Positions 26,626 to 39,894 of a stretch of DNA of 64,000 nucleotides are shown here, piece after piece. A program made the translations under genes and the position numbers. Source of the stretch: Halorarum salinum (GTDB lineage: Archaea > Halobacteriota > Halobacteria > Halobacteriales > Haloferacaceae); contig NZ_CP058579.1 in the NCBI RefSeq assembly GCF_013402875.1, positions 2,604,001 through 2,668,000 on the forward strand, read 5' to 3'. Every line of letters begins with the position of its first letter. Positions within the stretch are counted from its first letter, which is position 1. Under the pieces are notes generated by a model that had not been told where the DNA came from, ran no database searches, and was given only the letters and a program-made list of their open reading frames with translations.

Positions 26626-27096
26626 ATGGCATACAGCTACGAACCCCACCACTTCGAGGACTTCGAGGAGGGCCAGACGTTCGAGAGCGTCGGCCGCACG
26701 GTCACCGAGTCGGACTTCGTGATGCACTCGGCGTTCACGGGCGACTGGACCGAGCTCCACACGAACGCCGACTACGCCGCGGACTCCCAGTTCGGCGAGC
26801 GCGTCGCACACGGGCCGATGACGTTCTCGCTCGCCACCGGGTTCGTCTATCGGTGCGGCTTCCTCGAACGCACGGTGATGGCGTTCCTCGGAATGAACTA
26901 CATGGACATCCCCGCCCCGGTGTACGACGGCGACACGATCTCGCTCGACATGGAGGTCACGGGGACCAAGCCGTTCTCCTCGCGCGAGGACGCCGGCCTC
27001 GTCGTCCTCGACACGGAGATGACCAATCAAGATGACGTAGTTGTGTTCGAAGGCGACATGAAATTCATGATCAAGCGAAGGGACTACTCTCCGTGA
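26626..27096 (+). CDS. MaoC-type (R)-enoyl-CoA hydratase with a replaced 3' end
   Basis: A 156-residue hot-dog hydratase. The segment FTGDWTELHTNADYA (about residues 39-53) carries the Asp and His of the hydratase-2 motif, and the reaction would hydrate (R)-enoyl-CoA in fatty acid or polyhydroxyalkanoate metabolism. Bases 26928-27023 are identical to 35436-35531. After that repeat, the codons to the stop are AT-richer (AATCAAGATGACGTAG) than the rest of the gene, and the last 20-odd residues differ from those encoded by the right-hand copy. So an island insertion seems to have swapped the native end for a homologous foreign end, keeping the gene functional. Confidence 0.85.
   Translation: MAYSYEPHHFEDFEEGQTFESVGRTVTESDFVMHSAFTGDWTELHTNADYAADSQFGERVAHGPMTFSLATGFVYRCGFLERTVMAFLGMNYMDIPAPVYDGDTISLDMEVTGTKPFSSREDAGLVVLDTEMTNQDDVVVFEGDMKFMIKRRDYSP
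26928..27023. repeat. 96-bp direct repeat, left island boundary
   Basis: Every base from 26928 to 27023 is identical to 35436-35531. The repeat lies inside the maoC coding sequence. Together with its right copy it brackets about 8.4 kb of accessory sequence, like an attachment site or a crossover region. Confidence 0.85.
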
Positions 27097-27168
27097 TCAG
27101 GGGACGCGAGTGAACACAGGAAGACGAAGGTGCGCGCGGAGAAAAGGTGCACATAATGGCCCAGCGGC

Positions 27169-27717
27169 ATGCTGCTTTCACATGAAGCCGGTCATTATGG
27201 CTGGCCACGGGCGCGATCACGTATCGTGGTCCTCTCCGAGAACCATCAGCTCGTGACGTGGCCGATCCTCGAGATCCATCCCCCCACGTTCCTCTCTTCA
27301 TCGCACTTTCACCGGGGCAGCTCCTCGTAGTCGGCCTGCTGAGTACGCTCATCGGGTTGAGCGCCATGCAAATCGCTCGTCAGTGGCGCATTGATGAACG
27401 AGCAGGATTTGCGGAGGGGACGACTGGGTCGGCCGCCGTTGTCGGCTCGGGTTCCTGTGGGTGCTGTGGCCCCCTTGTCGCGAAGATCGCGGTGCTAGCC
27501 GCCGGCCCCTCCGTAGCAGCGCCACTCTACTGGGTGTTCGTCGATTCCGCATCCCCTACCTCGCTCGCTCTTCATCGTTGCGAGTATCGTCCTGTTTACA
27601 GGGAGTTTGGTGTACTCGGTCGAATCGGCACGGAATCCCGATCAATCGACCCGATCGTTCCGGCTAATTGAGCAACGGCACCGGAAGAATGAGAATTCCG
27701 GTGATGAACGGGACTGA
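27169..27717 (+). pseudogene. broken Cys-rich small membrane protein
   Basis: Three overlapping frames form one protein. From ATG 27169 the first frame reads MLLSHEAGHYGW... to HPPTFL, then a shift near 27295 leads to LSPGQLLVVGLLSTLIGLSA, two membrane helices and the motif CGCCGPLVAK, then a second shift near 27560 leads to IVASIVLFTGSLVYSVESAR and the hydrophilic tail ending at TGA 27717. The two shifts cancel. The CGCCGP motif next to a helix recalls cysteine pairs in MerT-type metal transporters, but no family can be assigned. Two indel errors would also explain it. Confidence 0.6.
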
Positions 27718-27738
27718 AGCCAGAGATGTTGCCGGGAG

Positions 27739-28378
27739 TCAGCCACTGAACTCGTCGTACGAGACTGCTTCCTGGTCGACGATCGTCTGACTATCCGGCA
27801 CCTCGCCGTCGGGGGGCATACTCCCTTCGGCAGGGCCGCCGGGTTCGTCGACCACAATACGGCCGACCATCCCGAGCGACTTGTGGGGGATACAGAAGTA
27901 GTCGTACGTGCCCGCCGTCTCGAACGTGTGCTCGAACGTCGCGCCCTCCTCGCTCACCGTCCCGCTGTCCCACGCCTCCGCGCCCTCCGGGATGCGCGTC
28001 ACCTCGGCCGGCCCGTTGCCCTCCTGATACGCCGTGGAGGAGTGGCTTCCACTCTCGATCCGGAAGGTGACCGTCGTCCCCGATTCGACGAAGAGGCCGA
28101 TCGGATCGAAGTAGTATTCGCTCCCCCCCCGTCTCCATCGCGATCGTGTTCTCACCGCCGCCACCGCCGGTCTCAGTGGGGGTCCCGTCCTCGGTTCCCG
28201 TCGGTGTCTCCGTGAGCGTCTCCTCATCGGCTTCCGTGGGTGTCTCCCCGTTGGGTTCCGTCGGCGTGTCCTCGGCTGGTTCCTGGTCGTCCCCGTCGTT
28301 GCCGCCACAGCCCGCGAGGATGGTGATGCCTACTGTAGCGGTGGCGCTGCTGGCTTTGACGAATGTTCGTCTGAACAT
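27739..28378 (-). pseudogene. halocyanin-like cupredoxin lipoprotein, frameshifted
   Basis: The 5' part (start ATG 28378) has a lipoprotein signal (FRRTFVKASSAT, lipobox LAGC at Cys24) and a Thr/Glu/Gly-rich linker. The rest of the protein continues in another frame as a blue-copper domain, with copper-ligand pattern His (SGSHSS), then Cys-His and Met (YFCIPHKSLGMVG). The shift occurs at an eight-base run of C at 28123-28130 on the plus strand; seven would restore the frame. It is either a real frameshift, phase-variable tract or sequencing error. Halocyanins carry electrons outside the membrane. Confidence 0.8.
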
Positions 28379-28453
28379 CCCCGTGGGCCTTCGTGAGCGA
28401 GAGGGTTACTGGTTCTGGTGCGATTCTCGAAGGGCATGTGGGCGGAAGATCGA

Positions 28454-28791
28454 TTACTGGCGTTCGTCGGTGCCGACGTACTCGCCGCCGTATTTCGGAA
28501 AGAGGTCGTGAGCCCGAGGATGGGGGTCATCACGACGAATCCGGCAACGCCCAGCGCCTTTGCGCTCCCCGGCAGCGTCGGGGGGCCTCCCCCACCAGTA
28601 TCGCCCCCGCCGTCCCCGTCGACGGTAACCGTGCCTACCATGCCCGCCCCCTCGTGCGGGATACAGAAGTAGCCGTATTCGCCCTCGACCTCGAACGTAT
28701 GTTCGTACGTCTCGCCGCCGGCGATGCTTCCCTCCGGGTACGCATCCCGCGCCGCAGATTCTTGGCACGGAAACGAAAGATATCGGCTTGA
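28454..28791 (-). pseudogene. remnant of a second cupredoxin with C-terminal membrane anchor
   Basis: On the minus strand an open frame from 28791 reads ARDAYPEGSIAGGETYEHTF then YFCIPHEGAGMVGTVTV, the C-terminal half of a cupredoxin with its Cys-His-Met ligands, a Gly/Asp linker and a hydrophobic helix (LGVAGFVVMTPILGL). The sequence then continues in a different frame as FPKYGGEYVGTDERQ before TAA at 28454. A stop at 28792-28794 and the lack of a start show the N-terminus is missing. So it is truncated and frameshifted. It lies next to the first cupredoxin. Confidence 0.7.
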
Positions 28792-28960
28792 TCAGCCGGC
28801 ATTACCGCGTCGAAACCAGAGCATGGACGACCGTTCGGAACCGGGGGACGACGCCGAGAGTCCACGAGTAGCATCCCCTATCTGAGGAATCCCCGTGTTA
28901 ACGATCTCCCGCCTTTTTGGACGCTGAAGCCGTTTTACTCGCCACCCGAAAGGGTGAATT

Positions 28961-29560
28961 ATGACCAGAGACACATTACTCGAGCAAGTAGTTGGCGGGG
29001 AATCGCGTCGGTCGTTCCTGAAGAAGGGCACGCTGGCGACTGTCGGCGCCGGCGCCGCGGTGTCGGGCGCCGTCCACGCACAGGAGGACGACGCCGGTGG
29101 CGGCGGCCTCGACGACGAGTGGCAAGGGCTCATCTTCGCCAACGATTTCCAGCCCAACGCGCGGTTCACGTTCGTCTCGGGAGTCGTCGAGTGGACGCCC
29201 AATTACGGCGACGTACAGGATAGCTTCTTCGCGGACTACAACACCCGCATGATCCGGTGGCTGAACACCGGCGAGAACGACACCCTGTTCGTCGCCGAGG
29301 ACGCCAACGTCGGCCAGTACGACGAGGACGCCGGGTTCGTCACCGACGCCGACGACGACCCGAACCAGCCCCAGCTCTTCGAGATGAATCAGGACTGGAC
29401 GCCGTTCGGCGACAACGAGCGGCTCATCAACGTCAACGTCTCCCCCGTCGACGAGGATGAGGAGGATGCCATCCTCGAGAACGAGGATTGGTGGCTGGAC
29501 GACGGAGCCGACGACGGGACGGAAACCGGGACGCCCGGTACCGAGACGGACGGCGCCTGA
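28961..29560 (+). CDS. Tat-exported acidic protein of unknown function
   Basis: A 199-residue protein. Residues about 13-40 form a Tat signal with the twin arginines in SRRSFLKKG and an Ala-rich hydrophobic core ending near AVHAQEDD. The mature part is acidic and beta-rich in look (RFTFVSGVVEWTPNYGDVQDSF, then NTGENDTLFVAEDANVGQYDEDAG), ending in a Thr/Gly/Asp tail. I do not recognise the family. It is divergent from the cupredoxins, and the two membrane protein genes 60 bp downstream converge with it. The setting suggests a cell-surface or redox role. Confidence 0.7.
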   Translation: MTRDTLLEQVVGGESRRSFLKKGTLATVGAGAAVSGAVHAQEDDAGGGGLDDEWQGLIFANDFQPNARFTFVSGVVEWTPNYGDVQDSFFADYNTRMIRWLNTGENDTLFVAEDANVGQYDEDAGFVTDADDDPNQPQLFEMNQDWTPFGDNERLINVNVSPVDEDEEDAILENEDWWLDDGADDGTETGTPGTETDGA

Positions 29561-29620
29561 CTGACGGATCACGACCGCGGTCGCGGCTCCCAGTGGTCCC
29601 TTCTTTTCTCCTGCAGTTGA

Positions 29621-30262
29621 TCAATCCCCGCTTTCGGAGCGAAGCCGCCGGCCGAGGAAGGCGACGAACCCGCCGACGTAGCACGTCCCCCACGCGGCCA
29701 CGATCACCGCGCCGGCCGTGTTGAAGATCATGTCGGAGACGATGTCGTCGATCCCCATGACCGTGAGTGGGGCCTGTGTGCCGGTAATGCTGGCGAGCCC
29801 TCCGGAGGCGAACTCGAGGATCTCCCAGACGACGCCGGCCGCGAGGACGAACACAACGATGAAAACGGCTCTAAACTTCGACGGTACGTCGATATCGTCG
29901 GAGTGACGCTCAAACGCTCTGAGGGCGGCGTATCCCGTACCCGCAATGACCGTCGCGGAGATCGTGTGCGTGACGGAGTCGTACCACGGGAACCACGTAT
30001 AGGGGCCGAGCGAGCCGACGCTATGAAGGAAGACAGCAACGGTGATCCAGAGTACAAGTCCGGCATCCATCGAGTAGCCGTACTCCCGACGCAACAGGGC
30101 GGGGAGGAGGGTCACGGCCAATGCGAGACCCCCATTCGCCGCCATCCCGAACTGGAGCGTCGCGAGGCCGTAGAGGAGGATGCCCAACAGGACGAGCTGG
30201 AGGATCCGTCCGAATACGCGTTCCTGGGGGTCGGAGAACCCCAGGACGTCGCCCAGCGTCAT
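29621..30262 (-). CDS. DUF2238/YjdF-like membrane protein
   Basis: A 213-residue polytopic protein with about six helices. The segments WFPWYDSVTHTISATVIAG and AGVVWEILEF recall the conserved charged residues of the DUF2238/YjdF family, whose function is unknown. The ATG at 30262 overlaps the stop of the upstream gene by four bases (ATGA), so it is translationally coupled. It lies on the island, convergent with the Tat-exported acidic protein. Confidence 0.7.
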   Translation of the reverse strand: MTLGDVLGFSDPQERVFGRILQLVLLGILLYGLATLQFGMAANGGLALAVTLLPALLRREYGYSMDAGLVLWITVAVFLHSVGSLGPYTWFPWYDSVTHTISATVIAGTGYAALRAFERHSDDIDVPSKFRAVFIVVFVLAAGVVWEILEFASGGLASITGTQAPLTVMGIDDIVSDMIFNTAGAVIVAAWGTCYVGGFVAFLGRRLRSESGD

Positions 30263-30849
30263 GGCTTCTCGGGCGGGATCATCGGCCGCCCGGCCGATCC
30301 GACGTGCTCGACCCGGTCGAAGTACCACACGAAGACCCCTCCCACGACGAGTCCGACGGCCGTGACGAGGACGAAATCCCACTGGAGTTCGGTCTGCGAG
30401 CGCAGGAACCCCGTGCCGAGCCACCGGTCCGAGTAGAACTGGGCGACGGTCCAGAGCCCCTGGATCGCCATCGTCGTCAGGACGGCGAACCCGACCGTGA
30501 AGCGCCGGCTCATGTCGACTGGGGTGAACGCGTCGAGCTCGACGACCGCAATGAGGGCGAGCGATGCGACGGCGACATACCCCGCAATCTCGGGGTATGA
30601 GCCGAGTGTGCGAACGAGTACGGCGATGGCCGTAACCAGCAGAAGTGGCCATGGGGGCAGCATCGTCCCCTCGCCGGTCGACAAGGCGGGTACTACGGTC
30701 ACCGTGGCGATGACCAGCGCAAGCCCGCCCCAGAGGAGGGCACCCTTCCGGAAGCTCTCAACGACCGAAAGAGTCACGCTACCCGTGAGCACCCACCCGA
30801 GAACGGCGTTGATCCGCTTGCTGTGTGCGAGCCAAATGAACGATGCCAT
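30259..30849 (-). CDS. six-helix membrane protein of unknown function
   Basis: A 196-residue protein with about six predicted membrane helices (near residues 13-30, 35-56, 67-83, 88-106, 116-138, 157-177). The start at 30849 begins MASFIWLAHSKRINAVLGW; an earlier in-frame codon at 30927 adds a non-hydrophobic Ser-rich lead and is less likely. It shares an ATGA overlap with the DUF2238-like gene. The composition is less GC-biased than genes outside the island. No family recognised. Confidence 0.6.
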   Translation of the reverse strand: MASFIWLAHSKRINAVLGWVLTGSVTLSVVESFRKGALLWGGLALVIATVTVVPALSTGEGTMLPPWPLLLVTAIAVLVRTLGSYPEIAGYVAVASLALIAVVELDAFTPVDMSRRFTVGFAVLTTMAIQGLWTVAQFYSDRWLGTGFLRSQTELQWDFVLVTAVGLVVGGVFVWYFDRVEHVGSAGRPMIPPEKP

Positions 30850-31204
30850 GGCGAGATTATGAGAAGAAGACGAATAAACTCGGAGGAGACATTGACGGTT
30901 TGCACACCCACCGAACGGATGTTTCACAATCAGGGACGCGAAACGAACAGCGACTGCCTACTGAATACAGCCTCTGTAGTCAGCACGCTGCTTTTGGCAG
31001 GAACACGGTAGGTTCCTAGATCTCTCCTGCATACAGAGCGCGTATTCGCACGACAGCAGTCCAGGTACGTTACTTTTGGAATTATTTGATAGTGTGAGCG
31101 TACTCACTGTATCCGAATGATGCAAAGATGGAGGCTGTCCGCGACCGGCACGGCTGCTGGGCTTGGCGACCTATGCCCACCCCTTTGGATGCTCGTCTAC
31201 TGGG
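30850..31204. other. AT-richer intergenic stretch, repeat-bearing
   Basis: About 350 bp in the island with no convincing gene. It holds one copy of the ~100-bp repeat (30942-31062). Short open frames here lack codon bias and are judged random. Confidence 0.5.
30942..31062. repeat. island repeat, copy 1
   Basis: This copy holds an imperfect palindrome CTGAATACAG-CCT-CTGTAGTCAG (30961-30983) followed by GTAGGTT and ATACAGAGCGCGTATTCGCACGA. The full arrangement recurs at 31578-31682, and the palindrome plus its left flank at 32211-32256. Confidence 0.6.
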
Positions 31205-31474
31205 CTACCACTGCTGGCGCTTCCCGCTGTCCGGGCAGATGGTCGTCAGCTTCGCCGCCTTCATCCCCAGGTACCCACCGATGATAGCGCCAGGAACCGT
31301 CGCAGCAATCCCCGCACCTGCCGTAGCGATGCCGACTTACGCCCCAGCCCACGCGCCACCGGTGGCTCCGGCGAGAGTTGCACCGGCTACCCTGGAGTGA
31401 TGTTTAGTCGGGTCGAATTCATGGCCACATTCCTGGCAGACCGTCGTTCGAGTCGTCTTCGGTTTTCGAGCCAT
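31205..31474 (-). pseudogene. zinc-ribbon/glycine-zipper protein interrupted by TAA
   Basis: From ATG 31474 the frame reads MARKPKTTRTTVCQECGHEF, a CxxC start, then a Gly/Ala-rich stretch GATLAGATGGAWAGA, and meets TAA at 31337-31339. The same frame stays open beyond it, reading VGIATAGAGIAATVPGAIIGG to a C-terminal TICPDSGKRQQW and the true stop at 31205. So a protein of about 89 residues with two cysteine clusters flanking a glycine-zipper membrane helix is split by one nonsense codon. It is a recent pseudogene or a sequencing error. Confidence 0.65.
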
Positions 31475-31831
31475 GAGGTGTTTCTCAGGTAGAACTACGC
31501 TATCGCCGATTAACGTTATCAGCCCCCATCGATCGCCATCCGCATCGTAGGGTTCGTTTTGAACCGGAGGTACTCTCCGTGCTGAACTCACCCTTTGTGG
31601 TCAGCATTCGGATCGTCACAAGGACTGAGTAGGTTGAAACGCCCCTACAATGATACAGGGCGCGTATCGGGCACGAGGGCAGGCCGATGTGCCAAGTGAA
31701 TGTATCGCTAAGTACAGATAATCCAGTTAACGAGACGTGCAGTCAAAACGGGTTCCAAACTAACCGTTGGCCAACCGTCATAGTCAGAGACCTATCGTAT
31801 TGGAAGAGGAAGGGCAGTTCTATCGACTGGG
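31475..31831. other. intergenic stretch with island repeat copy 2
   Basis: Moderate-GC stretch without a clear gene. The repeat at 31578-31682 fills its centre. A possible short ORF between 31687 and 31974 is not supported by codon pattern. Confidence 0.45.
31578..31682. repeat. island repeat, copy 2
   Basis: Matches copy 1 throughout: CTGAACTCAC-CCT-TTGTGGTCAG (31582-31604), then GTAGGTT, then ATACAGGGCGCGTATCGGGCACGA. Spacing between the parts is nearly the same in both copies. Confidence 0.6.
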
Positions 31832-32080
31832 TTACTCTCCTTGTTGTACTTGGTGGATTTCCTCGGCGACGAGGCCGTGTGCCTCGCTGTGAACTTTCTC
31901 ACCCGTCTCTTTGTCAGGAGCTTCAAACAGGCAGAATACGGTACCTTCGTCCTCGTCGAACCAGTATTCCTTAAAGTTTGCATCGTACTGCTCCTGCGTT
32001 TCGAGGTCCTTCTGGTGGGCTTCAGCAACCTCTTCCGGGCTCGCATCAACGTTCTTATGGATGTCCATGAACAGTGGCAT
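31832..32080 (-). CDS. DUF4242 family protein
   Basis: An 82-residue protein of the DUF4242 (SCO4226 nickel-binding-like) family, small dimeric ferredoxin-fold proteins. The start PLFMDIHKNVDASPEEVAEAHQKD, the core YWFDEDEGTVFCLFEAPDKETGEKVHSEAHG and the length fit. The role is unknown; relatives bind metal at a His cluster, and His8 and the CLFEAP Cys are visible here. It lies alone in a poor-gene part of the island. Confidence 0.8.
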   Translation of the reverse strand: MPLFMDIHKNVDASPEEVAEAHQKDLETQEQYDANFKEYWFDEDEGTVFCLFEAPDKETGEKVHSEAHGLVAEEIHQVQQGE

Positions 32081-32210
32081 TGCCCACTAAAATAGCCCAC
32101 AGCAAGGGAATAACGTTCGGCCCTCTTGGTATCCATATAGTTCCTACCACAATGCAAGGACGATGAGAATGCAGGCCCACTTAGCGGCTGTTTCATCGCT
32201 GACGGCCGGA

Positions 32211-32256
32211 AACGAACGACGACCGTCTACTGCATACATCCTCTGTAGTCAGCAGG
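32211..32256. repeat. island repeat, copy 3 (partial)
   Basis: ACGAACGACGACCGTCTACT precedes CTGCATACAT-CCT-CTGTAGTCAG, matching the left flank and palindrome of copy 1. The right-hand half is not clearly present. Confidence 0.5.
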
Positions 32257-32817
32257 CCAGGTCTGTCAACTGTTGCGGGTTTCGACACGGCCCTCCGACC
32301 TCATACTCGATAGTCGACGAGATCCGCATTTCGAGCGTCACTGTCGACTTCCATCGCAGCCAGTGCGGATCCATCGGTCGCAAGAGACGAAGATCAAAGC
32401 GGAAAAAGAATCCGTCACAAGGAAAGAGGAAAGAAAAGAAGAGGAATAGCGGGAGGAAGTCGGAACCGAAGTGATCCCCGGCGACGCCTAACCGGCCTTT
32501 CCTTCTCCCCCATTCCACTTCCTGTTCCCTACCCAGTGAGGGCTCACCTTCTCCGTTCTCCCGCTCAGACGAGAAGTATCGCGAACTCGCCCCCCACCAG
32601 GATTACCTCGACCGGATTCACGTCCGGAGCTGCCTGCTTGGCGCCATCTCCATGTCCCGCTAATTCCGTTTCCGGCCGATAGAAGCTGATACAGCCGGTT
32701 AGAAGGATGTAGCCACCGGAACGATGCAACTGCATCCGGGTGTTCGCCAGTTCTCAAACCCGGTGGAAAGGACAGTTTTTCCCATATCGATACTAATGAA
32801 TTTCAATGTATCACTAG

Positions 32818-32831
32818 ATTAAATTTTTAAC
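32818..32831 (+). promoter_or_regulatory. box A of the secreted hydrolase gene
   Basis: ATTAAATTTTTAAC is a strong TATA box; transcription would start about 25 bp downstream, near 32848-32853, which supports the ATG at 32854 and a leaderless mRNA. Confidence 0.6.
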
Positions 32832-32853
32832 ACATCGGGTGTTAGCGACGGTC

Positions 32854-34830
32854 ATGCCACATAATGGCACGATACCAAGGGGCACACCAATGTCCCGACG
32901 ACGGTTCGTGGAGCTGAGTGGAGTGTCACTCGTCGGTTTCGGCGTTACGGCGAACCCAGTCAAGGGAGCAGTCTCGGAAGAACGGGCACAGACGGGGCAA
33001 CTCGTCGAGAAGAGAGAAAACGTCGAGGTGGAGATGCGGGATGGTCGGATCTTGCGCGCCGACGTGTACCTCCCACCGCAGGCAAATCAGCGCGGGGGTA
33101 TCGAGACGCTGGTAACGCGGACGCCTTATAATAAAGCCGGCTACGGCGGAACTGCGGAGTATTTCGCCCAGCGAGGGTATGCGGTGGTCGTGCAGGACGT
33201 CCGCGGGAAGTTTGAGTCCGACGGGGACTTTTATCCCTATCGGAGCGAGGGGAACGCCGAGGCGGCCGACGGCTACGACACGATTGAGTGGGCGGCTGAA
33301 CAGGAATTCTCGAACGGCATCGTCGGAACCTTCGGTATTTCCTACCTCGCTGGTACGCAGTGGGCGATCGTTCACAACGACGAACTCCCGCCACACCTTG
33401 AGGCGATGGCCCCGGGGTACGCCGTGTCGAGTTACTACGGGCAGGGATCGTACGCAGGTGGTGCGTGCCTGCTCTCGCACAACATCGATTACTTGAACGG
33501 ATTCGGAGTCGAGCGGTTCAATCGGGACAATCCGAACCAGGCTGACAACTTCACCGTCCTTGACGAGGCCCAGGAAGCGATGATGCAGGTCTACTGGGAC
33601 CTCCCGGTCCATCCCTACGAGCCGTTCGAGGAGGTCGGGCTCGACTGGCTCACCGACTGGCACACGAACGAAACCTACAACGAGTACTGGGAAGCCCAGG
33701 ATCATACTCTCCACTACGACAAGGTCGACATTCCAGTCCTCAACTACGGCGGCTGGTACGACATCTTCACGCAGGGTCCCGTCACGAACTACCAAGGGCT
33801 CGCCGAGGAAGGGGTTTCCGACGAGATGGAACTCGTAATGGGTCCCTACACCCACGGCGCGGAGAGCGTGCGTGCGCAGGGGCAGGTAACTGGCTCGGCG
33901 TACTACTTCCCCGAGAACGCGGCGTACGACGAACTTGCGACCGTCGTGGCGTTTTTCGACCGGCACTTGAAAGGGCGCGCGCAACAGGTCGAGTCACTGC
34001 CGAGCGTCCGGTTCTATGTCCCGGGGCTCGACGAGTGGGTCGGCGCGGAGGAGTTCCCCCTGCCGGAGACGGAGTTCACGAACTACTACCTGAACAGCGA
34101 CGGCGATGCGAATGCAGACGCCGCGGCAACCGACGAGCCGACTTACAACGGCGAGCTATCGACGAACGATTCCAGGAGCGATCCGACGGACGAGTACACG
34201 TACGATCCGAGCGATCCGGTCGTCGCTCAGGGCGGCTACAATAGCCACTGGCACGGCGGTGTGACCGACCGCGCGACCGCTTATCACGGCCGCGAAGACA
34301 TCCTAGTCTATCAGACGGATGTCCTCTCCGAGGACGTCGCCATCGTCGGCCCGATAACCGTCACGCTGTTCGCGGAAACGTCGGCGGTCGATACGGACTT
34401 CATCGTCCACCTCTCGGACGTGACCCCTGGGGCCCGCACGGGGGGGCTCTGGGTCGCAGAAGGTGCTCGGCGAGGACGCATCGGCGACGTGGAGGCCGAT
34501 CCGCGTGCTCTCGAATCGTACAGCGACGTGAGTCTGCTGACCCCCGGGGAGGTCTACGAGTGGAAGATCGCCGTCTGGCCCACCGCACGGGTCTTCGAGG
34601 AAGGACACAGGATTCGAATCGACGTTACCAGTAGCGACTTCCCGCGGTACGACCGGAACCTGAACACGGGCGAAGGACTCGACGACGACGAGATGGAGAC
34701 CGCAGAGCAGACGATCTACCACGACGACGTGTACCCCTCTCGCGTCGAACTCCCCATCGTTCCGATGGAAGGCCTCGAAGAGCGAACGATCGACTCACCC
34801 GTGCCCGGGCGCCAGGGACGCGGACGGTAG
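32854..34830 (+). CDS. secreted CocE/NonD-family X-Pro dipeptidyl-peptidase-like hydrolase
   Basis: A 658-residue alpha/beta hydrolase of the CocE/X-Pro dipeptidyl-peptidase (S15) family. A Tat signal (SRRRFVELSG near residues 13-22) predicts export. Ser163 in FGISYLAGTQW is the nucleophile and His334 in GPYTHG is in the family charge relay; an aspartate upstream completes the triad. The C-terminal beta-rich jelly-roll (from about residue 460) is the third domain of the family. It may hydrolyse esters, cocaine-like or peptide amides; substrate unknown. It is the only large intact gene of the island, with a TATA box in a tract unlike the GC-rich surroundings. Confidence 0.85.
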   Translation: MPHNGTIPRGTPMSRRRFVELSGVSLVGFGVTANPVKGAVSEERAQTGQLVEKRENVEVEMRDGRILRADVYLPPQANQRGGIETLVTRTPYNKAGYGGTAEYFAQRGYAVVVQDVRGKFESDGDFYPYRSEGNAEAADGYDTIEWAAEQEFSNGIVGTFGISYLAGTQWAIVHNDELPPHLEAMAPGYAVSSYYGQGSYAGGACLLSHNIDYLNGFGVERFNRDNPNQADNFTVLDEAQEAMMQVYWDLPVHPYEPFEEVGLDWLTDWHTNETYNEYWEAQDHTLHYDKVDIPVLNYGGWYDIFTQGPVTNYQGLAEEGVSDEMELVMGPYTHGAESVRAQGQVTGSAYYFPENAAYDELATVVAFFDRHLKGRAQQVESLPSVRFYVPGLDEWVGAEEFPLPETEFTNYYLNSDGDANADAAATDEPTYNGELSTNDSRSDPTDEYTYDPSDPVVAQGGYNSHWHGGVTDRATAYHGREDILVYQTDVLSEDVAIVGPITVTLFAETSAVDTDFIVHLSDVTPGARTGGLWVAEGARRGRIGDVEADPRALESYSDVSLLTPGEVYEWKIAVWPTARVFEEGHRIRIDVTSSDFPRYDRNLNTGEGLDDDEMETAEQTIYHDDVYPSRVELPIVPMEGLEERTIDSPVPGRQGRGR

Positions 34831-34901
34831 GCAGGCGTCACTACCTCCTCTTGGAGTCCTTTTTGTTCCAGTCGGCCAATGAATCCCCGAGGGGAAATTG
34901 A

Positions 34902-35345
34902 TTCCGTGACCCAGTAGTGGCAGTCGTAACGGTGGATCGAACTGGTGGTCCCGTCGGGGTCCTCACTTTCCCCGCAGAGTGGCGCACGATGTTCGCCGAC
35001 AGGGACGTGCCGGCCAACCAGCTTTTGGTGCAGCAGCGTGTCTCGAAGGACGTCGAGCGGTCCAGCCAGGAGACGCTTACGGTGTGTGCGCTGCGGCGGA
35101 TGCAGTAGGGCACGCCGCTTGCGCCTGGCCAACGGGTCGAGTACGTCGTCGTCGACGCTGCCGGCCGCAGGAGTGTGCGAGTCCGACTCACCCACGAACA
35201 CGTCGACGACTACGATGCTGGCTGGAACCGCGACCAGTGTATCCGGGCTGCGGTCAGTGTCCGCTCACCACGTGGGTATCGAGAGTCGGACATCAAGACG
35301 CATCTCGACGACTGTGAGATGCCGTCGCTCCGGTCCTACCAGTAG
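34902..35345 (+). pseudogene. C-terminal remnant of a family B DNA polymerase
   Basis: The frame reads VAVVTVDRTGG... then LLVQQRVSKDVERSSQETL (a pattern of archaeal PolB C-termini), meets TAG at 35106-35108, and stays open in the same frame as GTPLAPGQRVEYVVVDAAG, then IRAAVSVRSPRGYRESDI to the TAG at 35343. Loss of three bases would turn CAG TAC GTG GGC into CAG TAG GGC, so the stop arose from a small deletion. Only about 145 codons of a polymerase of perhaps 700-1000 residues are left. Replicative polymerases of this kind occur on haloarchaeal plasmids and proviruses. It abuts the right repeat. Confidence 0.7.
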
Positions 35346-35407
35346 GAACCAGTGGCGGGAGGAGTGTTGGCAGACGCGTGACCTACCTTTTTCCACTGCC
35401 ACCTTTT

Positions 35408-35595
35408 ATCTGGACGTTCCCACGCCGGTGTACGTCGGCGACACGATCTCGCTCGACATGGAGGTCACGGGGACCAAGCCGTTCTCCTCGCGCGAGGACG
35501 CCGGCCTCGTCGTCCTCGACACGGAGATGACGAACGGGGACGGCGAGACGGTGTTCGCCGGCGACGTGAAGTTCATGATCGCCCGACGGGACTGA
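35408..35595 (+). pseudogene. severed 3' end of maoC hydratase
   Basis: This fragment encodes YLDVPTPVYVGDTISLDMEV... to FMIARRD and a stop. Bases 35436-35531 are identical to part of the intact maoC. The bases after the repeat (GAACGGGGACGGCGAGACGG) are GC-rich and host-like, as expected for the native 3' end. The bases before the repeat (the YLDVPTP codons) differ from the left gene and look like the island's own copy. It has no start codon and is not expressed as a separate protein. Confidence 0.75.
35436..35531. repeat. 96-bp direct repeat, right island boundary
   Basis: Identical over 96 bases to 26928-27023. It marks the right end of the accessory island. Confidence 0.85.
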
Positions 35596-35701
35596 TCACA
35601 TCGAACGCAGGACGAGCACGGATCCCGGGGACGTGAGGGACTCGCGATCGCCGTGGCCCGTTCGGCGCGACCCCCCTGCGGCAGGTATTTACGGGCGGTC
35701 G

Positions 35702-36181
35702 ATGAACCGACCGACCGTGAGTACCGACGAGCCCTCCGGCGGTGCCGCGGGCGCGCCGTCGACCGAGACGTACTGCATCTCCTGCGGGGAGTCGATCTCC
35801 GCCGACGCCGAGATCTGTCCCCACTGTGGCGTGAGCCAGCGGCGCCTCCCGGAGAGCGGCGGCCCCGGCCGGACGGCCGACGAGAAGTACTGCACGAACT
35901 GCGGGAGCGTCGTCAACCGCGACGCGGAGCTGTGCCCGGAGTGTGGCGCCGAACAGACGATCGGCGCGGGCGGCGAGGTGGACAAACTCGCGGCCGCGCT
36001 CATCGCCCTCTTCCTCGGCGGGCTGGGGATCCACAAGTTCTACCTCGGCGACAACAAGATGGGCGTCCTCTACCTCTGTTTCTTCTGGACGGGGATCCCC
36101 GCCGTGCTCGGGATCATCGAGGGGATCATCTACCTCACGAAGTCCGACGAGGAGTTCCAGCGCCGGTACGTGAAGCGCTGA
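35702..36181 (+). CDS. TM2-domain protein with double zinc ribbon
   Basis: A 159-residue protein. Two zinc ribbons lie in residues about 19-85 (CISCGES/CPHCGVS and CTNCGSV/CPECGAE), followed by a TM2 domain (about 95-150) with GGLGIHKFYLG, two membrane helices and the ending of charged residues EEFQRRYVKR. TM2 proteins are common membrane proteins of unclear role. ATG 35702 is preferred over upstream starts because a following in-frame start would break the N-terminus. The DUF2085 gene starts one base after the stop. Confidence 0.8.
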   Translation: MNRPTVSTDEPSGGAAGAPSTETYCISCGESISADAEICPHCGVSQRRLPESGGPGRTADEKYCTNCGSVVNRDAELCPECGAEQTIGAGGEVDKLAAALIALFLGGLGIHKFYLGDNKMGVLYLCFFWTGIPAVLGIIEGIIYLTKSDEEFQRRYVKR

Positions 36182-37379: not shown

Positions 37380-38321
37380 ATGGACATCGAGACGGTCAAG
37401 GAGCGGGCCGGCCCCCGCCAGTTCGGCCCCGGCGACGACATGCCGGAGGAGTACCGGCGGCGTGCGACCCGGATGATCCAGTTCCACGCGAACAGCGAGG
37501 TGATGGGCGGCTACCTCGACAGGGAGTTCACCCGCCACGCGCCGTCGCTGGACCGAAAGCTGGCGAACACGGCGAAGGTTCAAGACGAGATCGGACACGC
37601 CCAGTTGCTCTACCGGGCGGCGGAGACGCTCGGCGTCAAGACCCGCGACGAGATGCTGGAGGAGCTCCGAACCGGCGAGGGGAGGTTCCTCAACTGCTTT
37701 CACTACCCCGTCGACTCGTGGTACGAGGCGCCGATGATCGACTTCTTCGTCGACGGCGGCGCGATGCGCCGGCAGGCGACGCTGAAGAACACGTCGTGGA
37801 CGCCGTACGCCCACGCGATGGACAAGGTCTGTTTCGAGGAGGGGTTCCACGTCAAGCACGGCGAGTCCATCCTCCGGGAACTGATGCGCGGGTCGAAGGC
37901 GACCCGGGAACGCATGCAGGAGACGTTCGACGAGTGGTGGCCACGGATCCTCCAGTTCTTCGGGCCGACGAACGACGAGTCGACCCACAACGACTTCGCC
38001 CAGGAGGTCGGGCTGAAGACGACGAGCAACGACGACCTCCGCAACTCGTTTCTGAACATGTACGTCCCGAAGGCCGAGAAGTACGGGCTCGAGATCCCGG
38101 AGTACCCGCGCATCTTCGAGCGCGAGGACGGCACGATGGCCGTCCGCGAGGACGACCTCGACTGGGACGAGTTCTGGACCATCGCGAAGAACGAGTACGT
38201 GGGGAGCCACGAACAGATCGGCTCACGCCGACGGCGACGGGACGCGGTCGAGTGGGTCCGCCGGTCGATGGACGCCTGGGAGTCGAGCGCGGGGGCGGCC
38301 ACGGGGGCGGCGAACCCATGA
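37380..38321 (+). CDS. paaA: 1,2-phenylacetyl-CoA epoxidase subunit PaaA
   Basis: A 313-residue catalytic subunit of the multicomponent monooxygenase that epoxidises the ring of phenylacetyl-CoA in aerobic phenylacetate breakdown. Di-iron ligands are visible: Glu40 (FHANSEVMGGY), Glu70 and His73 (DEIGHAQ) and Glu153/Glu154 and His157 (CFEEGFH). The start at 37380 gives DIETVKERAGPRQF, the family start. It overlaps paaB by four bases (ATGA) and is followed by paaC and paaD. Confidence 0.95.
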   Translation: MDIETVKERAGPRQFGPGDDMPEEYRRRATRMIQFHANSEVMGGYLDREFTRHAPSLDRKLANTAKVQDEIGHAQLLYRAAETLGVKTRDEMLEELRTGEGRFLNCFHYPVDSWYEAPMIDFFVDGGAMRRQATLKNTSWTPYAHAMDKVCFEEGFHVKHGESILRELMRGSKATRERMQETFDEWWPRILQFFGPTNDESTHNDFAQEVGLKTTSNDDLRNSFLNMYVPKAEKYGLEIPEYPRIFEREDGTMAVREDDLDWDEFWTIAKNEYVGSHEQIGSRRRRRDAVEWVRRSMDAWESSAGAATGAANP

Positions 38322-38656
38322 TCTACGAGGTGTTCCGCCAGGAGGAGCCGGGCGACTACCACCGGCACGCCGGCAACGTCCACGCCCCGGACCGCGAGAT
38401 GGCGAAGCTGTTCGCGAGCATCCAGCACGGTCGCCGGATGCAGACGAACTCCCTCTGGGTCGTCCCGCGATCCGAGATCGGCGAGGTCGACGCCGACGAC
38501 GTCGCGTTCGGCGGCTCGACCGACAAGGCGTACCGCTGGGCGATGACGTACAACGACATCGACGCCTCGTTCGCACGGGAGGTCGAGGACAGCGAGGCCG
38601 AACAGCGCGAGGCGGCACGCAAACGCCGCGAGGCGACGCGGGAGGGGGCCGACTGA
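38318..38656 (+). CDS. paaB: 1,2-phenylacetyl-CoA epoxidase subunit PaaB
   Basis: A 112-residue subunit matching PaaB (IYEVFRQEEPGDYHRHAGNVHAPD, then QHGRRMQTNSLWVVPRSEI). PaaB bridges two PaaAC heterodimers and is essential for activity in bacteria. Its ATG overlaps the paaA stop by four bases, and its stop overlaps paaC (TGATG), so it is translationally coupled on both sides. The C-terminus is an acidic/basic tail longer than in bacteria. Confidence 0.93.
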   Translation: MIYEVFRQEEPGDYHRHAGNVHAPDREMAKLFASIQHGRRMQTNSLWVVPRSEIGEVDADDVAFGGSTDKAYRWAMTYNDIDASFAREVEDSEAEQREAARKRREATREGAD

Positions 38657-39477
38657 TGGCCGCGGACCTCGATCGCGACGACCTCACCGCCGAACAGCAG
38701 CTCGCGCTGGAGGGGCTCCTCTTCCGGCTCGCGGACGACGAGTTCGTCCACGCCGAGCGGCTCACCGAGTGGCAGATCTTCGCGCCGACCATCGAGTCGG
38801 ATCTCGCGCTCGCCAACGTCGCACAGGACGAGTTCGGCCACGCCCGGCTCTGGTACGAACTCCTGCAGGAACTCGGCTACACCGAGGCCGAGTGCGTCTG
38901 GGAGCGCCCGCCCGGGGAGTGGACCCACGCGACGCTCGTGGAACGTCCGTTCGAGGAGGACGGCTGGGGCGACGCCGTCGTCCGGGGGTACCTCTACGAC
39001 GTCGCCGAACGGCTCCGCCTCGATGCGCTCGTGGACACGAGCTACGCCCCCCTCGCGGACCGCGTCGGCAAGGCGCTCGCGGAGGAGGACTACCACCGCG
39101 ACCACGCCGAGAGCTGGCTCGAACGGCTGTCCGCAGACCCGGCCTCGCACGAGCGCGTCCAGGCGGCCGTCGAGGAGCTGTTCCCGCCGGCGCTCACGCT
39201 GTTCGCCCCGGGACCGCGCGAGGAGGGGGTCGTCGACCACGGCTTCCGGACGGAATCGCTCCCGGACCTGCGCGCCGAGTGGCTGGACGTCGTCGTCCCG
39301 TTCCTCGAGTCGCTCGGCCTGGAGGTGCCCGAACCGGACGCCGTCGAGCGCCCCGCGGCGGTCGGGCGGGACGGGAGCCACACGGACGCCTGGTTCGACC
39401 TCCACGAGGAGTTCACCGCCACGTACCGCGAACTGGAGTTCGAGTCGCCCGCGCGCCTGCGCGGCGAGGGGCCGTAG
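38656..39477 (+). CDS. paaC: 1,2-phenylacetyl-CoA epoxidase subunit PaaC
   Basis: A 273-residue structural partner of PaaA with the ferritin-like fold. Retained metal-type motifs are DEFVHAERL (near the start), DEFGHARLW and EEDYHRDHAESW. In bacteria PaaC has lost most ligands and stabilises PaaA. The start ATG at 38656 overlaps the paaB stop. It is followed at once by paaD. Confidence 0.93.
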   Translation: MAADLDRDDLTAEQQLALEGLLFRLADDEFVHAERLTEWQIFAPTIESDLALANVAQDEFGHARLWYELLQELGYTEAECVWERPPGEWTHATLVERPFEEDGWGDAVVRGYLYDVAERLRLDALVDTSYAPLADRVGKALAEEDYHRDHAESWLERLSADPASHERVQAAVEELFPPALTLFAPGPREEGVVDHGFRTESLPDLRAEWLDVVVPFLESLGLEVPEPDAVERPAAVGRDGSHTDAWFDLHEEFTATYRELEFESPARLRGEGP

Positions 39478-39894
39478 ATGACGACGAACGCGCCGCTCGA
39501 CGCGGACGTCTGCTCGCACACCGACTACGGGTCGGGCGAGTCGTCGGACGAGTACCCGAAGACCGGGGAGGGTGCGACCGGGACCGAGGCCGACGTCTGG
39601 GACGCGCTGTACGGCGTCGAGGACCCGGAGATGCCCGTGAGCGTCGTCGACCTCGGACTCGTCTACGGCGTCGAGGTCGACGAGCCGACTGACCACTGCG
39701 TGGTCGAGTTGACGCTCACTTACTCGGGCTGTCCGGCGCGGGACCTGCTCATGAACGACGTCCGCTGCGCGGCGATGACGGCCGAGGGCGTCGCCGACGC
39801 GGAGGTCCGCCTGCGGTACTCGCCGCAGTGGAACGTGGAGATGGTGACCGAACGCGGACGGGAGCACCTCCGCGAGTTCGGGCTGAGCGTGTGA
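39478..39894 (+). CDS. paaD: PaaD, MIP18/DUF59 part
   Basis: A 138-residue protein with a MIP18-family domain (residues about 38-135): WDALYGVEDPEMPVSVVDLG and YSGCPARDLL are landmark segments. PaaD assists assembly of the epoxidase, probably its Fe-S/iron centre. In bacteria PaaD ends in a C-terminal cysteine motif, which is missing here and is encoded by the next small gene. The first 35 residues are a Ser/Asp-rich extension. It starts directly after paaC. Confidence 0.9.
   Translation: MTTNAPLDADVCSHTDYGSGESSDEYPKTGEGATGTEADVWDALYGVEDPEMPVSVVDLGLVYGVEVDEPTDHCVVELTLTYSGCPARDLLMNDVRCAAMTAEGVADAEVRLRYSPQWNVEMVTERGREHLREFGLSV

Follow-up and report, generated by a model that had tools for sequence, protein, structure and literature searches.

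An island inserted near the 3′ end of maoC in Halorarum salinum, and evidence suggesting a haloarchaeal attachment site

The maoC locus and the content of the island

The window, a stretch of 64,000 nucleotides of the Halorarum salinum genome (contig NZ_CP058579.1, positions 2,604,001 to 2,668,000), contains a 96-bp direct repeat whose two copies, both on the plus strand, are 100% identical and lie 8,508 bp apart, start to start. These 96 bp are the middle of a longer block of homology of about 190 bp, corresponding to the 3′ end of maoC (26899-27096 versus 35407-35595). The alignment of the two blocks has 32 mismatches over 195 positions and none of them falls inside the 96 bp; when 32 mismatches were placed at random 200,000 times, a clean run of 96 was never obtained. 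The homology begins at codon 92, 29 bp upstream of the 96 bp, and the informative boundary is this left edge of the block rather than the start of the 96 bp. The left copy continues upstream as maoC, and the sequence preceding TAT-CTG-GAC at 35407 shows no maoC likeness. The left gene matches G000:C1:2630626-2631093, with its frame intact. The features of the locus are as follows (E values refer to Pfam matches).

26626-27096, plus strand: left maoC gene, 156 codons, a hybrid of host 5′ part and core with a foreign 3′ end; frame intact, identity to other genomes piecewise
26889-26913, plus strand: imperfect dyad CGGAATG-N11-CATCCCC spanning codons 89-96 (GMNYMDIP), the putative core for a recombinase acting on the empty site
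26899-26927, plus strand: left edge of the block, left copy, host-like (86-90% to congeners)
26928-27023, plus strand: 96-bp repeat, left copy (91% to both congeners)
27024-27096, plus strand: AT-rich, foreign new end of maoC, last 24 codons (GC 45%, 70% to congeners)
27097-35406, no strand: island body (GC 61%)
27258-27671, plus strand: frameshifted membrane-protein remnant; the related gene adjoins a plastocyanin gene on haloarchaeal plasmids
27739-28378, minus strand: halocyanin (copper-binding) gene with a frameshift (PF00127, E 1.4e-11)
28454-28768, minus strand: second halocyanin-like gene, a fragment (71% repeat of 27836-27945)
28961-29560, plus strand: secreted protein with a twin-arginine-like signal and no Pfam family
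29621-30262, minus strand: DUF2238-like membrane protein, a weak match under the family cut-off (PF09997, E 0.0018)
30259-30849, minus strand: membrane protein whose gene adjoins the DUF2238-like one on plasmids too
31832-32080, minus strand: SCO4226-like small protein (PF14026, E 6.4e-21)
32854-34830, plus strand: secreted S15 / CocE-type X-Pro dipeptidyl-peptidase (PF02129, E 2.8e-50; PF08530, E 2.1e-34)
34917-35345, plus strand: type B DNA polymerase remnant, C-terminal part interrupted by a stop, matching plasmids and homologues in the same genome
35407-35435, plus strand: left edge of the block, right copy, foreign (YLDVPTPVYVG; 69-72% to congeners), the boundary of the element-borne maoC block
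35436-35531, plus strand: 96-bp repeat, right copy, identical to the left one
35532-35595, plus strand: 3′ end that the host maoC originally had, now displaced (86-88% to the congener G002)

The GC content of the island is 61%, versus 70% in its flanks, and its cargo is plasmid-like and in large part broken. The membrane-protein remnant and the frameshifted halocyanin genes are related to a metal-handling cluster of haloarchaeal plasmids, and gene pairs similar to the DUF2238-like gene and its neighbour are found on plasmids. Of a replication gene, only the C-terminal remnant of type B DNA polymerase is present, next to the right block. This remnant is matched by 115 plasmid records, many of them annotated as type B DNA polymerase; two longer polymerases of this genome come closest to it (68-69%), together with one of G002 (64%). 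We propose that it may have been left by the replicon of a plasmid or virus. Elsewhere in the same genome, the region L283 (G000:C1:2807000-2826500) contains relatives of the halocyanin, DUF2238-like and type B DNA polymerase genes in the same order as in the island. No integrase was found near the longer polymerase homologues of this genome, those of L283 included.

Profile searches of the six frames recovered neither a tyrosine integrase nor a remnant of one in the island. A weak integrase-profile match at 35579-36178, right of the island, was rejected, this gene encoding a zinc-ribbon protein matched through the zinc ribbon alone; another weak match, in L019, is also a zinc-ribbon protein, encoded beside maoC, which matches the C-terminal zinc ribbon of integrases. 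There is no tRNA gene in or near the island. A dispersed repeat (core CTACTGNATACANCCTCTGTAGTCAGCA) is present three times between island genes, at 30940-30988, 31561-31609 and 32209-32257; with up to 3 mismatches, we counted 5 copies in this genome, 14 in G002 and 0 in G001, the reversed control pattern giving 0. To the right of the island, positions 37380-39894 have the appearance of a phenylacetate-degradation (paaABCD-like) cluster, which adjoins maoC in both congeners, and the maoC gene may belong to this pathway.

Empty sites in congeners and the two ends of maoC

Two congeners, G001 and G002, were available for comparison. In both of them maoC is uninterrupted and directly followed by the genes of the right flank of the window, the synteny resuming at window position 35676 in G002 and 36665 in G001. 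The island body has no counterpart at this place in either genome, and tandem full-length maoC copies with neighbours between them were seen in neither. Because maoC is continuous and the flanks are joined in both congeners, the comparison of sequences confirmed the island as an insertion into the 3′ part of maoC, and not a decayed tandem duplication.

The left gene changes character along its length. Its GC content is 65-67% before the repeat versus 45% after it, and its identity to G001 is 93% in the 5′ part and 91-93% in the core. The best matches of the 3′ tail (about 80%) are in other genera and families, the identity to either congener being 70%. The orphan 3′ end on the right has a GC content of 64%. 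The pieces of maoC are thus distributed crosswise: the left 5′ part, the 96 bp and the right 3′ end match the congeners, and the left tail and the right edge do not. Such a crosswise exchange of host and foreign pieces is what would be expected from one exchange between a circle and the gene. Sign tests on short pieces are singly weak (p = 0.05 for the left tail alone and p = 0.13 for the edge alone), and the case is carried by synteny together with both ends taken jointly. The island has flanking direct repeats of the attB/attP type, a regenerated target and a displaced fragment.

The initial annotation of this DNA had described two identical 96-bp copies in differing surroundings, an intact left frame with an AT-richer, different ending, an orphan right end of host-like GC and no integrase between the repeats, all of which hold with the coordinates and values given above. 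It had also proposed that a circular element bearing its own maoC fragment integrated by a single crossover, giving the gene a new end, and had looked to relatives for an empty site, or for tandem full-length copies that would speak for duplication; the crosswise origin of the pieces supports this proposal and the two congeners provide the empty site.

The same maoC site in other haloarchaea

We searched maoC 3′ ends in about 470 genomes. Further ends were then sought in the family to which one of the positive genomes belongs, and the integrase of another positive genome in the family of that genome. Four further genomes were of interest, G200, G281, G171 and G380. In G200, which belongs to another family, an orphan maoC 3′ fragment starts at the codon YMD. 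This fragment is 94% identical to the maoC ends of the congeners at the protein level, 95.5% identical to G263 at the DNA level, and is followed by the genes found downstream of maoC in its congeners. A tyrosine integrase gene (466 aa) starts 37-49 bp from it. The maoC gene of G200 itself is host-like up to YMD (TACATGGA), then AT-rich, foreign and frameshifted. The element extends over two contigs, which would be the two ends of one element, and measures at least about 21 kb.

The maoC gene of G281 also switches at YMD to an AT-rich tail, its GC3 going from 0.96 to 0.62, the largest drop among 127 genes. This tail is homologous to that of G200, the two hosts being of different genus, and a displaced fragment of the host's 3′ end lies about 0.85 kb downstream, just ahead of the genes found after maoC in relatives. 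The GC3 drop had to be discarded as a means of detecting hybrids in general, since it picks G281 and misses the window, where no more than 24 codons are foreign. In G171, an orphan maoC 3′ fragment starts at NYMD, the left half being absent from the assembly (86% complete). The arm preceding this fragment (TATTCCC...CTATCGTAGT) resembles that of G200 (TATTCCC...CTATAGTCGTAGT) in a by-eye comparison. Finally, G380 (Haloarchaeobius iranensis EB21) has a 1.39-kb insert directly after maoC where its congeners have 5-15 bp. This insert begins precisely at the stop codon of maoC and holds nothing but a lone integrase gene of 419 aa (L120:8492-9751). Occupied and empty sites can be set side by side in relatives for G200 and G380 as well.

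The integrases of G380 and G200 are 38% identical, and most of their relatives are located elsewhere than at maoC. The adjacency of integrase and maoC is not background, since none of 59 other genomes has an integrase of this family within 12 kb downstream of maoC. We found no free element carrying the maoC block among the viral contigs, phages and plasmids searched; the plasmid maoC matches, as far as examined, are annotated or full-length genes. G331, G357, G361, G366 and others with two strong maoC matches were set aside as well, these matches being judged full-length paralogues by open-frame length. In G021 the maoC match (L082, G021:C8:22000-37000) ends shortly after codon 92; the gene was apparently broken by a deletion and no element was seen at this disrupted locus.

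The boundary common to the window, G200, G281 and G171 falls within the GMNYMDIP codons, whose sequence in many genes is CGGGATG-AACTACATGGA-CATCCCG (7-N11-7). This dyad pairs at 5.5 of 7 positions on average in 106 maoC genes, versus 1.9 elsewhere in the gene, and at 5 of 7 in the window. Of the 12,300 arm, spacer and position combinations compared, the 6-N11-6 form ranks first, with another place in the gene a close second. The dyad may be partly incidental, because the codons are conserved and it could be their by-product. We propose this 25-bp stretch, with its flanks, as a putative attB, and TACATGGAC as a candidate recombination site. Together, these sequence comparisons suggest that the same maoC gene has been a repeated landing site of mobile DNA in haloarchaea.

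Origin of the island and comparison with known systems

We regard it as likely that the island is a decayed mobile element, plasmid- or virus-like, that has no integrase left and occupies a haloarchaeal maoC attachment site. Its circular form would have borne its own copy of the last ~65 maoC codons, and a single exchange between this block and the chromosomal gene would have inserted the circle, given the gene the 3′ end of the element and left the 3′ end of the host gene beyond the island. The integrase would since have been lost from this genome. The final junction would have been produced by homologous recombination or gene conversion between the blocks, with the last exchange inside the 96 bp. 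Homologous recombination is favoured for this last step because the switch lies inside the 96 bp, which are host-like in both copies. The block would thus have acted as an attachment site restoring its target gene, as in tRNA-gene islands (PMC4383910).

The block looks like an attachment site, and its homology to maoC is probably no arbitrary stretch, because its left edge is common to other haloarchaeal elements, one of them beside a tyrosine integrase. The element-borne fragment put forward by the initial annotation is retained in this reading. We infer that there was a circular intermediate, that an integrase acts at the maoC site and that one was once present in the island; the recombinase step is borrowed from the other genomes because the island has no integrase or remnant. 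Several observations go against this reading: the switch lies inside the 96 bp and not at YMD as in G200 and G281, the arm of the island next to the right block has no clear likeness to those of G200 and G171, the insertion in G380 is at the stop codon and not at YMD, its integrase has only 38% identity to that of G200, relatives of these integrases are mostly located elsewhere, and the viruses, phages and plasmids searched gave no free element with a maoC block.

In a more specific form of the decayed-element reading, a tyrosine integrase would have inserted the element at codons 92-94, exactly as in G200; the integrase would later have been lost, and a conversion or second exchange between the two blocks would have moved the switch into the 96 bp. 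The left boundary is the same as in G200, G281 and G171, and an integrase adjoins the block in G200, but an extra step is needed to explain a foreign right edge together with a host-like left edge. We hold this form tentatively, at somewhat less than even probability.

Pure homologous recombination would do without an attachment site or an integrase: a foreign circle carrying a part of maoC by chance would have recombined with the gene, the 96-bp identity being a conversion tract. The position of the switch, within 96 bp that are host-like in both copies, and the lack of an integrase in the island agree with this scenario, and gene conversion is efficient in the polyploid haloarchaea. However, although the window switches inside the 96 bp whereas G200 and G281 switch at YMD, the edge of the block is common at codon 92, and the block starts at the same codon as the orphan fragments in two other families, one of which lies beside an integrase. 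This edge also coincides with a conserved dyad that is among the strongest in maoC, and we estimated that a random fragment would share it by chance in roughly 1/100. Since the block edge is common to other genomes, an attachment-site origin of the block is favoured. Recombination of this kind as the whole explanation seems unlikely to us.

A decayed tandem duplication of maoC with genes inserted later between the copies would account for two homologous copies in direct orientation, but it is rejected by the synteny with both congeners, which have no second copy and joined flanks, and a duplication would not produce copies whose parts are of reciprocally different origin, as seen here; it is very improbable. 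Equally improbable is an assembly artefact, the chimeric joining of two similar loci: repeats can mislead assemblers and the estimated contamination of this genome is 4.8%, but the contig is of chromosome size (4.02 Mb), a 96-bp repeat is short, the orphan end is in its expected syntenic place, and the longer polymerases nearest to the island remnant are in the same genome and genus.

A broader reading would make maoC an order-wide attachment site, at which haloarchaeal elements, each bringing its own last 65 codons of the gene, repeatedly exchange the C-terminal third of a functional host enzyme, using several only distantly related tyrosine integrases; the arguments for and against it appear to us evenly balanced.

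Phage 21 and the element e14 attach in the icd gene of E. coli. There too, the element bears the 3′ end of the gene, a hybrid enzyme is regenerated and a 3′ fragment is displaced, but the host is bacterial and the integrase intact. In tRNA-gene islands, the target is regenerated at one end and a displaced fragment lies at the other (Islander, PMC4383910). The marks at the ends of our island are alike, whereas its target is a protein gene and no tRNA gene is near.

Similar cases are known in archaea, so that a metabolic gene as target is unusual, as the initial annotation held, but not unprecedented (PMC8371274; PMC6563490). A review of archaeal recombinases places the attachment site of halovirus BJ1 in an HMG-CoA reductase gene; as described there, this is also a haloarchaeal element using a metabolic protein-coding gene, although a different one (PMC8371274). 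In Thaumarchaeota, 14 integrations into the 3′-distal regions of protein genes have been reported, and the example described has a 13-bp att site and replaces eight nucleotides including the stop codon (PMC6563490). These cases resemble ours in the insertion at the 3′ end of a protein gene, the restoration of the frame by the sequence of the element and the empty sites in relatives. They differ in that our island carries a block of ~65 codons and replaces 24 to 65 codons, and the list of targets given for those cases does not include maoC (PMC6563490).

Haloarchaea gain here a defined, testable attachment site in a protein gene, with natural examples of occupied and empty states. According to the same review, recombination at such protein-gene sites has never been tested and the role of dyad symmetry there is an open question (PMC8371274); both can be put to the maoC site directly. 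The locus also shows how an island can be recognised after the loss of its integrase, and how mobile DNA may give a metabolic enzyme a different end with the reading frame still open. No report of maoC as an integration target was found in the literature searched. Integration into the 3′ ends of protein genes is established in archaea, and what is new here is the use of maoC as a target in several haloarchaeal families and the unusual length of the protein end that is replaced.
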